From Atribacterota bacterium (GTDB lineage: Bacteria > Atribacterota > Phoenicimicrobiia > Phoenicimicrobiales > Stramentimicrobiaceae), in assembly GCA_028717805.1 (NCBI GenBank), contig JAQUNC010000026.1:1-33747 (forward strand): a DNA stretch of 33,747 nucleotides, given 5' to 3'. The position numbers and the translations under genes are program-made. Below the pieces are notes generated by a model that ran no database searches, was not told the origin of the DNA, and was given only the letters and a program-made list of their open reading frames with translations. Shown piece after piece: positions 17,609-21,428 of this stretch (positions are counted from its first letter, which is position 1; each line of letters opens with the position of its first letter).

Positions 17609-17825
17609 CCCTCCTTAGAGCTGTGGTTGAAAGTCGATGCCAGCCGCAGGCAAAACGACCCACGTAAGGTAACAATTATAAGTTACTGAGCATGGTGCGG
17701 TTTTGGAGTTAGTCCTGCCTTATCATGTGGACATGATATATGATAAGAGAAGAGTAGTAGTGAAAAGATAGCGAGGCTCTCAGCAGGCGAGTGTGGGGGA
17801 AAAGACCAGGTCAGTCTAAGGAGGG
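17609..17825 (+). ncRNA. raiA RNA: structured RNA between comFC and hpf, likely raiA-motif RNA
   Basis: A noncoding stretch of about 217 nt, clearly more GC-rich than its surroundings and without an ORF. A perfect 11-bp closing stem joins CCCTCCTTAGA (17609-17619) to TCTAAGGAGGG (17815-17825). Inside, GTAAC (17669-17673) pairs with GTTAC (17682-17686), and CTTATCAT (17719-17726) with ATGATAAG (17740-17747). The second hairpin competes with a TATCATG/CATGATA pairing (17721-17727/17732-17738). CCTGC (17714-17718) can reach either of two GCAGG copies (near 17646 and 17783). The raiA motif is a published structured RNA of Firmicutes and Actinobacteria found just upstream of raiA/hpf, and linked in Clostridium acetobutylicum to sporulation and aggregation. 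Position, size and folding fit; its consensus was not aligned here. Confidence 0.75.
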
Positions 17826-18068: not shown

Positions 18069-18614
18069 ATGAATTTGATAATAAAAGGAAAACAGTTTGA
18101 GGTAACGGATTCCATAGAAAATTATATTAGAAAAAAAATGAAGAAATTAGAAAAATATTTTGATCAGATTATAGAAGCGGTGGCTACTATTAGTGTGGAG
18201 AAGAACAGGCATATATTTGAGGTCACCTTACAAGCCAAAAAGGCAATGATTAGGGCAGAGGAAGAAAGTGATAATATATATAATTCCATTGATAGAGTGA
18301 TTGAAAAACTGGAGAGACAAATTGTCAAATATAAAGAAAAACTTTACTCTAAGTATGCTAATGAATACAATAGAGAAGTAAACAATATTTCAGAAAAGGA
18401 AGAATATGAAATAGGTTCTAATTCCGACCAGGATAGGAAAATTGTCAAAACCAAAAGATTTGCTATAAAACCTATGTCTCCAGAAGAGGCGAGCTTGCAA
18501 ATGGAACTTTTAGGGCATAATTTCTATGTTTTTAGCAATGAAGAGACCGCTCAAATTAATGTTATCTACAAGAGAAAGGATGGCAATTTCGGTTTAATAG
18601 AACCTGAAGTGTAA
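18069..18614 (+). CDS. hpf: long-form ribosome hibernation promoting factor
   Basis: Hpf binds idle 70S ribosomes and pairs them into inactive 100S dimers in stationary phase. At 181 aa this is the long form. The N-terminal S30AE domain starts MNLIIKGKQFEVTDSIENYI and is followed by KLEKYFDQI. After a Glu/Ser-rich linker (about 105-125) comes the C-terminal dimerisation domain, with KRFAIKPMSPEEASLQMELLGHNF and YKRKDGNFGLIEP. The ATG has a strong SD, AAGGAGGAAAGG. The gene lies downstream of the structured RNA; family knowledge ties it to (p)ppGpp-linked growth arrest, and relA is 4 kb away. Confidence 0.96.
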   Translation: MNLIIKGKQFEVTDSIENYIRKKMKKLEKYFDQIIEAVATISVEKNRHIFEVTLQAKKAMIRAEEESDNIYNSIDRVIEKLERQIVKYKEKLYSKYANEYNREVNNISEKEEYEIGSNSDQDRKIVKTKRFAIKPMSPEEASLQMELLGHNFYVFSNEETAQINVIYKRKDGNFGLIEPEV

Positions 18615-18630
18615 AAAATAGGGGGACCTA

Positions 18631-19299
18631 ATGAATAATATCTCTGTTAATGATTTTCGCAATTTTATTATTTCACCTCAGTTTGCTTCCAGGATAAAAG
18701 ATATTGAAAAATCTATCAACTCTTTAAATGGTATATTGTTTTCTAAAATTGTGTTAGCTGATAATAAAGAGATTAAGGAAATCCATATTATTACTAAGGA
18801 CTTTTATAGTCCTAAAAAGATCAGCCGAGATGTAGAATCTCTATTAATGGCAAAATATAATATTGCCATAGATTATCGTAAAATCAGCATTGCCCAGGTG
18901 ACCGAAGAAAAAAACCATTCTCAAAGATTGAAATTTACCGATCTGTTAATTACTTCTGAGGGAGATAAATTACAGGTAGTAGTTAAACTGGAAAACAATG
19001 ATAAAACCTTTGAAGGGAAAATAAAATGTGCCAATTGGGATAAAAACAGAGAATATATTGTCACTAAGGCTACTCTGGAGGCAATTACCTCTTTCTTAAG
19101 TGGAAAGGTATTTTTTCAGGTTGAAGAGATTAAAAAAGTCAATTTGGAGGACCGAGAAGTAGTTTTAATTTCTATTAATTTAATTAATGAAGGAGGAAAG
19201 GAGAATTTACTTGGAACTGCCTTGATAGAGGATGATCAATATAGGTCTTTAGTTAAGGCAATACTAAAGGCAGTTAATAGAAGAATCCTGATTAAATAA
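18631..19299 (+). CDS. conserved-looking hypothetical protein, 222 aa
   Basis: Not assigned to a named family. It has no signal peptide or transmembrane helix and looks cytoplasmic. The N-terminal half contains a long charged helix and an alpha/beta segment with IKEIHIITKDFYSPKKISRD and YNIAIDYRKISIAQV. The C-terminal half shows a repeating strand-helix pattern and ends in LLGTALIEDDQYRSLVKAIL and AVNRRI. Both halves could be small ACT/BON-like alpha-beta domains, but that is only an impression of secondary structure. The ATG follows AGGGGGA and starts 16 bases after hpf, so it is very likely in the hpf operon. Base composition matches its neighbours. Confidence 0.75.
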   Translation: MNNISVNDFRNFIISPQFASRIKDIEKSINSLNGILFSKIVLADNKEIKEIHIITKDFYSPKKISRDVESLLMAKYNIAIDYRKISIAQVTEEKNHSQRLKFTDLLITSEGDKLQVVVKLENNDKTFEGKIKCANWDKNREYIVTKATLEAITSFLSGKVFFQVEEIKKVNLEDREVVLISINLINEGGKENLLGTALIEDDQYRSLVKAILKAVNRRILIK

Positions 19300-19401
19300 A
19301 AATATTAGAAAAAATTGATAGCATCATATTAATTAGAATAGAGATAGGTCGGTGATTCTTAGATAAAACCATTTAAAAGGAGATAATAAGTAGCAAAAAA
19401 C

Positions 19402-19470
19402 GTTCTATAACCGAGCGAAGCGAAGCGGTTTTTGCTTGTTCTTTTAGAACAAAGAAAAACCGTGGAGGTG
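19402..19470 (+). promoter_or_regulatory. structured leader with competing hairpins ahead of a mini-gene
   Basis: The left strand CGGTTTTT (19426-19433) pairs with AAAAACCG (19455-19462). Inside, GTTCT pairs with AGAAC around a TTT loop, so 19426-19462 forms one long hairpin ending two bases before the SD GGAGGTG (19464-19470). The same left strand can instead pair with AACCG (19409-19413), and GTTCTA (19402-19407) with TAGAAC (19445-19450). The two folds exclude each other. GCGAA repeats (19414-19425) fill the 5' loop. There is no match to either known c-di-GMP riboswitch class that I can recognise. Confidence 0.5.
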
Positions 19471-19474
19471 CGAC

Positions 19475-19561
19475 ATGAAAATTAATAAAGCCAAACTCAT
19501 TAGCTTTTTAATTAGTGTCATGGCCTTGCTGCTGGCCGGTGGCGCCAAAGTTAGATGGTAA
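19475..19561 (+). CDS. 28-aa hydrophobic small protein
   Basis: A short gene with ATG 5 bases after a perfect GGAGGTG SD and a stop at 19559-19561. The product is a basic start (MKINKAK), one hydrophobic helix with FLISVMALLLAGGA, and a short KVRW end, so a single-span membrane peptide. Its codons are more GC-rich than the neighbours, and it is preceded by a strong hairpin and followed by further pairings that include the SD of the HD-GYP gene. It could be a leader peptide controlling that gene or a small protein acting on its own. No family is recognised. Evidence is SD, codon structure and topology only. Confidence 0.6.
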   Translation: MKINKAKLISFLISVMALLLAGGAKVRW

Positions 19562-19570
19562 ATAACTGAG

Positions 19571-19606
19571 GGTCGCCGACCTATTATTGTTTAAGTTAGG
19601 TGGGAG
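19571..19606 (+). promoter_or_regulatory. alternative hairpins overlapping the HD-GYP SD
   Basis: GGTC (19571-19574) pairs with GACC (19578-19581) as a tight stem around GCC. The bases ACCTA (19579-19583) can instead pair with TAGGT (19597-19601), which is part of the SD AGGTGGGAG of the next gene. Only one can form at a time, the usual design of a translational switch. The upstream mini-gene stop is at 19561, so a terminating ribosome would cover the first hairpin. The stems are short (4-5 bp). Confidence 0.4.
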
Positions 19607-19614
19607 AATATACA

Positions 19615-20850
19615 TTGAATTCTAAGTTAAAAATATTTATATCAGTAGTTTTTTTATCAGCCATCCTTCTTTTTATTTTATTGCTTCCTACCATGCCTGT
19701 AATATCTGAAATATGGCTTCATTTATTATTTTTTACTGTTGTTGCTGTACTGGCTGAATATCTGCCTGTTGTTTTACCTACTGGGGGTAAGATTTCTGTA
19801 TCCTTCCCAATTAGCTTTGTAGTTATATTGGTTTATGGACCTGCTGCAGCGATGGTTTTTGAAGTATTAAGTATTATTTGGACTATTTTTAACAAAAAGG
19901 AATTATGGTACAAATCTATATTCAATGCTACTCAATATTCTTTATCTGCTGGATTAGCTGGATTAATTTATCTATTTGCTGGTGGTATGATTGGGAAACA
20001 GAATTTTATTAATTATTTACTCCCGGCGGCGCTATGTGCTTTAACTTTTTGTTTCATTAATCTTTTTCTTGTTACTTGTGTTATTTCTCTTGATTCCGGA
20101 ATGAATATTATTAAAGTATATCGAATTAACATTAAAGATATTATTCCAAGCTATTTAGCTGAGGCACCTATGGGCTTTATCATGGCAATTATCTATGTAC
20201 AAATTGGAATTTTAGGTATTCTTTTATTCTTCTTTCCCCTCTTTTTAGCTCGTCAATCATTTGAATTATATACCAGAATGCGTAAAATGTATTTAGATAC
20301 TATTCGTACCCTGGCAGCCACCATTGATGCTAAAGATCCTTATACTCATGGACATTCAGAAAGAGTATCTCTTACGGCTGTGCAATTAGCTAAGAAATTA
20401 GACTTTGTAGAACCGGAAATAGAATACCTTGAATATGCAGCTATCTTGCACGATATTGGTAAAATTGGGATAGAGGACCGTATACTGGGGAAGAAGGATA
20501 AACTAACTGAAGAAGAATATGAAAAAATAAAAGAACATCCTGTAATAGGAGCGAGTATAGTTGAATCCATTGAATTTTTGAAAAAAAGTTCTAAGGCTGT
20601 GTTATATCATCATGAACGTTATGATGGCAAAGGTTATCCACACGGGCTGAAAGGAGAAGAAATTCCTAAAGCAGCCCGATTACTGGCTGTAGTCGATGCC
20701 TATGATGCTATGAATTCCGATCGTCCTTATCGTAAAAAATTATCAGAAAATGATATTTTAAATGAATTAGAAAGGGAAGCCGGTAAACAGTTTGATCCTA
20801 TCATGGTAAAGTTATTTATTTCTTTGTTGAAGGAAAAGAGGGCAGACTAA
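19615..20850 (+). CDS. membrane-anchored HD-GYP domain phosphodiesterase
   Basis: The 411-aa protein starts at TTG 19615, 8 bases after the SD AGGTGGGAG; a GTG at 19600 would sit on the SD itself. About 210 residues of N-terminal membrane domain with six to seven helices are followed by a cytoplasmic HD-GYP domain. That domain has HGHSERV, the metal pair HD (279-280) in HDIGKIGI, HHERYDGKGYP (332-342), and DAYDAMNSDRPYRK. HD-GYP enzymes break down cyclic di-GMP; the intact motifs suggest activity. The membrane part probably senses a signal but is not a sensor family I can name. The stop overlaps the next ATG (TAATG), so the DUF5317 gene is translationally coupled. Confidence 0.92.
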   Translation: MNSKLKIFISVVFLSAILLFILLLPTMPVISEIWLHLLFFTVVAVLAEYLPVVLPTGGKISVSFPISFVVILVYGPAAAMVFEVLSIIWTIFNKKELWYKSIFNATQYSLSAGLAGLIYLFAGGMIGKQNFINYLLPAALCALTFCFINLFLVTCVISLDSGMNIIKVYRINIKDIIPSYLAEAPMGFIMAIIYVQIGILGILLFFFPLFLARQSFELYTRMRKMYLDTIRTLAATIDAKDPYTHGHSERVSLTAVQLAKKLDFVEPEIEYLEYAAILHDIGKIGIEDRILGKKDKLTEEEYEKIKEHPVIGASIVESIEFLKKSSKAVLYHHERYDGKGYPHGLKGEEIPKAARLLAVVDAYDAMNSDRPYRKKLSENDILNELEREAGKQFDPIMVKLFISLLKEKRAD

Positions 20851-21428
20851 TGTTATATATAATAATAATTGTTATTAGTATTATCATTGGTTTATTGCGT
20901 GGTGGTGAGTTAGAAAGATTAGCTAATATCTCGGTGGAGGGAGTCTTACTATTTGCTATTGCTCTTTTGTTAAGATTAGGAGTTTGGGCTCTTGGACTAA
21001 TGGGATTTACTGGTATTTTAAGTTATAGTCCTTATTTAATAATTTTTTCTTATGTTCTATTGGTATTTGTGTCCATACGTAATATAAAATTACCTAGTTT
21101 TAGATATATTATTCTGGGTTTACTGCTCAATGCATTTGTTATTGTAGTAAATGGGGGCAGGATGCCGGTATTAGTAAAGGAGGGAGTGATAGAAAGCATT
21201 AATTCTACCAGTTTTTTAGAGGCAGAAACCAGAGTAGTTCATTCATTGATGAATAATAACACCCTATTTGCTTTTTTGGGGGATGTTATATCAATTCCAA
21301 AACCTTTTCCTGATAATTCTATTATAAGTGTTGGTGATATAATGATTTTTGTCGGTCTATTTGTACTTATTCAGAAAACAATGATGAGAGAAGATAAATT
21401 ACCACAGGAAGATGAGGGTATAGAATAA
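20850..21428 (+). CDS. DUF5317 family membrane protein
   Basis: A 192-aa protein with about five predicted transmembrane helices. Conserved-looking features are the N-terminal LLRGG, VVNGGRMPV (about residues 99-107), and SVGDIMIFVGLFVLI near the C-terminus, which fit DUF5317. The family has no known function and is often next to HD-GYP genes. It begins in the TAATG overlap with the HD-GYP stop. A partner role in membrane sensing for the phosphodiesterase is inferred from that coupling alone. The last 20 residues are acidic and probably cytoplasmic. Confidence 0.8.
   Translation: MLYIIIIVISIIIGLLRGGELERLANISVEGVLLFAIALLLRLGVWALGLMGFTGILSYSPYLIIFSYVLLVFVSIRNIKLPSFRYIILGLLLNAFVIVVNGGRMPVLVKEGVIESINSTSFLEAETRVVHSLMNNNTLFAFLGDVISIPKPFPDNSIISVGDIMIFVGLFVLIQKTMMREDKLPQEDEGIE

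Follow-up and report, generated by a model that had tools for sequence, protein, structure and literature searches.

The window, that is, the whole 33,747-nucleotide stretch of Atribacterota DNA analysed here, carries in this order a raiA RNA (17611-17823), hpf (18069-18614), gene X, the element described below (19343-19585), a MASE9-HD-GYP gene, a DUF5317 gene, secA, and prfB. The raiA RNA (Rfam RF03072, 170.7 bits), riboswitch-type in its listing, precedes hpf and belongs, like the element, to this run of genes. The features of the locus are given below, f1-f6 denoting Atribacterota families, with f1, f2, and f3-f6 treated as three clade groups.

18631-19299, + strand: gene X (222 aa), without Pfam family, profile A9; partner gene on the 5' side of the element, both in Atribacterota and at some outside loci.
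19343-19362, + strand: 5' strand of P1, a long-range helix around the micropeptide cistron, with a homologous helix in alignment A10.
19413-19422, + strand: GAGCGAAGCG motif, without variation within f1/f2 and with a GAGCG[A/G]AGCG-like form at most of the remaining P1-type loci.
19426-19462, + strand: P2 hairpin, whose stem (19426-19433/19455-19462) stops one base short of the Shine-Dalgarno (SD) region, with covariation in sister clades.
19463-19471, + strand: SD GTGGAGGTG of the micropeptide gene, invariant in alignment A8.
19475-19561, + strand: micropeptide gene of 28 codons (ATG 19475 to TAA 19561), product MKINKAKLISFLISVMALLLAGGAKVRW.
19515-19545, + strand: hairpin within the ORF (stem 19515-19525/19534-19545), with a compensatory synonymous C-G to U-A change between f1 and f2.
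19566-19585, + strand: 3' strand of P1, directly 5' of the HD-GYP ribosome-binding site.
19615-20850, + strand: MASE9-HD-GYP gene, predicted c-di-GMP phosphodiesterase with HD and GYP motifs; SD at 19599-19606.
20850-21428, + strand: DUF5317 membrane protein gene, adjoining the HD-GYP gene on its 3' side.

The product of the downstream gene returns hits with MASE9 (38.0 bits for a cut-off of 24.3) and HD_5 (133.6 for a cut-off of 27.2), possesses the HDIGK and GKGYP motifs, and has HD-GYP enzymes as its nearest solved chains. Both the domains and the catalytic motifs of a MASE9-HD-GYP c-di-GMP phosphodiesterase are present, and the gene is predicted to encode such an enzyme, starting, as judged from the alignment, more likely at TTG 19615 than at GTG 19600, where the ORF opens. 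The DUF5317 gene is found 3' of the HD-GYP gene in Atribacterota and also in G223 (L110 1641-2273), which makes it a further candidate member of the module. Gene X, whose family is found in 63 of 386 genomes, is often followed, outside the micropeptide cluster, by a purM-like gene (L265, L268, L269, L272, L278-L280; a resemblance only, without profile), and the element was not seen in the flanking DNA of those X loci where the purM-like gene follows.

The micropeptide gene lies directly 5' of the MASE9-HD-GYP gene. All 10 genomes of the window's family carry it, with a locus DNA identity of 82-100%, one main copy each, and the consensus MKINKAK[LIV]ISFLIS[VA]MALLLAGGA[KR]xxW, which drifts across the phylum to M[AK]KLxSILLGLLAIVLASGAGFxWR. 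The terminal Trp is present in 19/19 f1/f2 genomes, and pN/pS amounts to 0.115 in f1, 0.181 in f2, 0.199 in f3-f6, and 0.092 between f1 and f2. In our sample of 50 Atribacterota genomes, the profile search finds the micropeptide in 38, always 5' of a MASE9-HD-GYP gene; in the other 12, the HD-GYP orthologue was not found, the HD-GYP gene or X is cut at a contig edge (G019, G041, G022, G037), or, in G044, the sole HD-GYP match is partial and devoid of MASE9. No intact locus without the micropeptide was seen among these 50 genomes. A mobile or inverted-repeat element was rejected, the locus being single-copy and at the same site in every genome. The initial annotation had described an SD followed by a 28-codon ORF for a conserved membrane-type peptide, written in unusually GC-rich codons, and had proposed purifying selection on these codons as a check. 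The SD (19463-19471) and ORF (19475-19561) are indeed as drawn, the check was passed (pN/pS 0.092-0.199), and conservation is borne out by these values (0.09-0.20) together with the profile matches in 38/50 Atribacterota. The GC-rich codons are real and coincide, in the window's family, with the ORF hairpin 19515-19525/19534-19545. The 28-codon frame is, on this sequence evidence, a true micropeptide gene. Its product returned no match at the curated cut-offs of Pfam and NCBIfam, and a contig scan with a narrow peptide pattern gave matches in Atribacteria only.

Regarding the RNA, the motif, P2, the SD, and the ORF are enclosed by the covarying helix P1 in the stretch between X and the HD-GYP gene, in Atribacterota as well as in several other phyla. 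The fold energy of 19300-19630 has a z of -7.4 (0/100 shuffles), owing to the 20-bp long-range helix P1, and that of the 5' part alone a z of -2.5. The P1 arms are located 80-135 nt 5' of the ATG and within ~50 nt 3' of the stop codon. Where Atribacterota loci have enough flank (flanks are incomplete or masked at some loci, e.g. G107), P1 is nearly always present, with arm sequences that are unlike between loci (e.g. GATAGGTCGGTGA/TCACCGACCTATT, TTCAGGGCAGGCCAG/CTGGCCTGCCCTGAA, GGACCGGGACGAGCC/GGCTCGTCCCGGTCC, and ATCCGGAACGGGCCACC/GGTGGCTCGTTCCGGAT); at L026 and L065 the search chose another pairing. Mean P1 complementarity in Atribacterota is 38.4, as compared with 18.5 (sd 3.0) for shuffled arms and 20.8 when arms are re-paired across clade groups. 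RNAalifold analysis of A10, an alignment of 16 sequences from the sister clades f3, f4, and f6 built without structure, recovers P1 and P2 unaided, with 93.3% of the cells of these helices paired and two-sided compensatory changes at 17 of the 20 pairs (12/13 in P1, 5/7 in P2). Cells with two-sided changes number 57, versus 17.6 in shuffles (0/500) and at most 17 with slid partners. Within f1/f2, one P1 pair is two-sided (A-U/U-A) and six are one-sided, P2 is nearly invariant, and the ORF hairpin exhibits its compensatory C-G/U-A change. The counterpart of the ORF hairpin in f3-f6 does not rise above shuffles; it was rejected as a selected structure, and the claim is therefore limited to the f1/f2 version. 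The GAGCG[A/G]AGCG-like motif, 5' of P2 in most P1-type loci, occurs once in the window for 0.01 expected. A weak sigma-70 consensus scan reports as many sites as in shuffles.

Several elements of this fold had been anticipated. The hairpin 19426-19462 just 5' of the SD is confirmed, and the compensatory changes proposed as its check occur in the sister clades (5/7 P2 pairs) alongside near-invariance in f1/f2; the structured leader is likewise borne out (z = -7.4 for 19300-19630). The anatomy drawn at the time was right for the hairpin and the small gene and missed P1, the main RNA feature. A competing 5' pairing (AACCG...CGGTT) does not hold, being absent in L007, L008, L010, and all f2, and neither do two mutually exclusive short stems before the HD-GYP SD, which have a z of -0.1, are not kept in relatives, and reuse the P1 3' strand. 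The leader-peptide or riboswitch switch put forward from these stems is unsupported, since the stems are not conserved and the peptide is kept in lineages without the leader fold. The statement that no described class has such an arrangement stands, none matching in Rfam, Pfam, or NCBIfam: Rfam covariance models, GEMM included, report no match over the gathering score, the sole hit being a sub-threshold plastid psbA 3'UTR (E 0.12).

Outside Atribacterota, where phyla were counted by kinship and by the family labels of the genomes, the micropeptide ranges down to 16 residues (16-29 across bacteria) and comes with or without P1. Peptide profiles report it in 10/17 genomes of a second small phylum, that of G223; several of these genomes display two or three head-to-tail copies, each with its own SD, followed by MASE9-HD-GYP (L122/L129, L123/L130/L134, L118, L110). 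They also report it in the Thermus-like genus g41 (26 genomes) and in others of the Thermaceae, an assignment inferred from the near-identity of an L111 protein to Thermus homoisocitrate dehydrogenase, and the HD-GYP gene comes next in nearly all g41 genomes. The Thermaceae layout comprises a TTGACA-type promoter, the micropeptide, an intrinsic terminator, and then HD-GYP. At loci L137-L160 the promoter region CTCTTGACAGTATTGACNGACCCCCCTAAAGTGAAAGACAAGCAAACGGGG 5' of the ORF is strongly conserved, which suggests regulated or strong expression of the micropeptide. P1 is absent in both the Thermaceae and the second small phylum, where the micropeptide-HD-GYP pair is kept; the leader fold is also absent in f53, which keeps the micropeptide. 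G370 and G095 carry the micropeptide gene as an isolated unit, with a terminator of its own and away from HD-GYP. Free-standing relatives (MKRLFAILASCIALLLAGGANLKWW, L109 3996-4070; MIKILAILASCITLLLAGGANLKWW, L112 1305-1379) have a promoter-like sequence and a terminator, and HD-GYP is not adjacent.

The P1-type loci outside the phylum were reached from MASE9 genes or gene X, both anchors independent of the peptide, by reading the flanking DNA. The full layout (P1 arms, SD, micropeptide, HD-GYP, and, in most, an AGCG[A/G]AGCG-like motif) is found at 10 loci from eight families outside Atribacterota: in G241 (micropeptide MKKLWKILILTGSFLALLISAVGNIELW, P1 arms TGCCGGGGTGCA/TGCACCCCGGCA), in G323 (micropeptide MWLLDLIINLLGKGGDTDW, P1 arms TGGACCGACATCGAA/TTCGATGTCGGTCCA), and in G259, G115, G256, G251, G381, G243, G374, and G110. 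Mean P1 complementarity at these loci is 33.7, versus 22.7 for swapped partners. All ten loci, for 1.8 expected, have an SD-led ORF between the arms, and this ORF has a Trp among its last six residues in 9/10, for 0.2 expected; three of the ten loci (L261, L267, L277) were picked through a Trp filter, and the fair Trp count is therefore 6/7. The peptides of these loci have 16-25 residues, some being acidic, and in most of them the basic start and the GA site are missing.

We consider it probable, on balance, that the locus encodes a structured-mRNA micropeptide regulating the MASE9-HD-GYP enzyme, and that P1 serves to insulate or excise the micropeptide cistron. The micropeptide would be made as a separate product and would enter or bind the membrane through a single helix with a small-residue patch (AGGA/ASGA/AAGA) and a Trp near the C-terminus. 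It would then regulate the MASE9 sensor domain of the neighbouring phosphodiesterase, its level or processing setting c-di-GMP breakdown. Through double-strand cleavage or local protection, P1 would set the cistron apart as an RNA unit that is closed, protected, or excisable, and the peptide could therefore be made in amounts that do not follow those of the enzyme. The private promoter and terminator of the Thermaceae would perform this separating job there. MgtS, KdpF, and AcrZ are small membrane protein regulators encoded beside the membrane protein they modulate. Another such regulator, reportedly encoded beside its target, is DbfQ of Vibrio cholerae (PMC12714742). The micropeptide resembles this type in its position beside a membrane protein target, a conserved pairing that makes it a candidate member of this class; it differs in that no sequence family matches, the cistron lies within a conserved RNA helix, and its action on the neighbour is inferred. 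The element as a whole matches the definition of no testable named family, except for this general pairing with a neighbour. Counting against the favoured reading are the free-standing genes of G370 and G095, the weak individual P1 scores of some outside loci (L216, L227, L261, L217), the mostly modest fold z-scores of the outside loci, the peptides at the short end of the range (16-20 aa, such as MDLILELVTFFGRAGW), which look amphipathic rather than membrane-spanning, and several MASE9 genes (G125, G151, G159, G186) at which no micropeptide with a near-terminal Trp was found.

The alternative that survives best, though we judge it rather unlikely, is a cis-regulatory leader, in which HD-GYP expression would be under the control of P1 and P2 and of the small ORF being translated, whether by long-range termination, by sequestering or bridging the SD, or by a ligand riboswitch, the peptide serving as a translation sensor. 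It keeps some weight because P1 ends just 5' of the HD-GYP start and can hide or supply its SD in some clades. Indeed, the P1 3' strand is able to pair with the HD-GYP SD in some genomes (L004, CCTATTTT/AAAATAGG; L054, CCACCC/GGGTGG), and a U-run follows P1 in about half of the loci. In part of f3 (L060, L062, L064, L066), P1 is closely preceded by a perfect orphan SD TATAAGGAG and closely followed by an HD-GYP start that is devoid of an SD, so that the helix may bring the two together. These loci resemble the RNA-bridged SD of the phage T4 gene 38 type, except that the looped-out piece is ~230 nt long and carries a gene, and that only some clades have it. However, the U-run, the SD pairing, and the orphan SD are each confined to some clades. 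A universal role of P1 as a terminator was rejected, the U-run being absent in f4, f6, and several outside loci; a universal role in bridging the SD, or as an anti-SD switch, was rejected too, being found in some clades only. Like the c-di-GMP riboswitches GEMM-I and GEMM-II of Rfam, the element is a structured RNA tied to c-di-GMP genes, but it matches neither them at any threshold used nor any other Rfam riboswitch, encloses a translated cistron, and has a peptide that persists without the fold. The micropeptide gene also recalls the arrest uORFs TnaC, SecM, and ErmCL in being a short SD-led ORF 5' of the gene that would be regulated. Unlike theirs, its terminal motif is not fixed, the residues around the terminal Trp being variable, and it is not confined to the leader of one transcript, as the Thermaceae terminator between the two genes and the free-standing copies of G370 and G095 indicate. 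Lastly, the micropeptide is kept beside HD-GYP without the leader fold in f53, in Thermaceae with their terminator, and in the second phylum with its tandem copies; therefore the peptide, and not the transit of the ribosome, is the conserved thing.

A peptide signal is less probable still. The product would be a precursor resembling a signal peptide (basic start, hydrophobic core, putative [GSA]GA cleavage-like site), from which an aromatic/basic tail of 4-6 residues (KVRW, GFHWR, HFRW) would be released and sensed by MASE9. The tripartite architecture shared by the peptides of Atribacterota, Thermaceae, and the G223 phylum, the fixed spacing of the Trp after GA, the genetic pairing with a membrane sensor, and the tandem copies are consistent with this, but the P1-type peptides outside the phylum, short and some of them acidic, mostly have neither the basic start nor the GA site. 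Finally, a type I toxin-like gene is very improbable: hok/sok and AapA1 toxin mRNAs encode a small hydrophobic peptide and have long-range 5'-3' pairing, and the element shares the size and hydrophobicity of the peptide, the closure that would restrain it, and, in one phylum, tandem copies, but it has a strong SD of its own, is single-copy in most genomes, and occupies a fixed site before the same enzyme across phyla, in conserved synteny and with no known antisense RNA.

Returning to the micropeptide as a regulator of its neighbour, literature searches found no published description of either the peptide or the RNA, and the micropeptide-RNA-HD-GYP arrangement appears to be categorically new as a layout, the functional link being a proposed one. 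To our knowledge, no input is known for most HD-GYP phosphodiesterases, nor for MASE9. The peptide-enzyme pairing recurs in many unrelated bacteria, and the peptide may therefore be the missing regulator of the MASE9-HD-GYP enzyme. More tentatively, we could be looking at a widespread, unrecognised module, in which a micropeptide provides the MASE9-HD-GYP input, as ligand or as regulatory subunit, and in which the peptide gene is kept a separate RNA unit within the operon by a new class of RNA, made up of the GAGCG[A/G]AGCG-type motif, P2, and P1 around the cistron. By its pairing with MASE9-HD-GYP across several phyla, the peptide gene offers a concrete candidate input for this enzyme, and a covarying helix around a translated gene of 20-30 codons is an RNA layout without any family on file, which poses the question of how bacteria produce one small product in excess from mid-operon.
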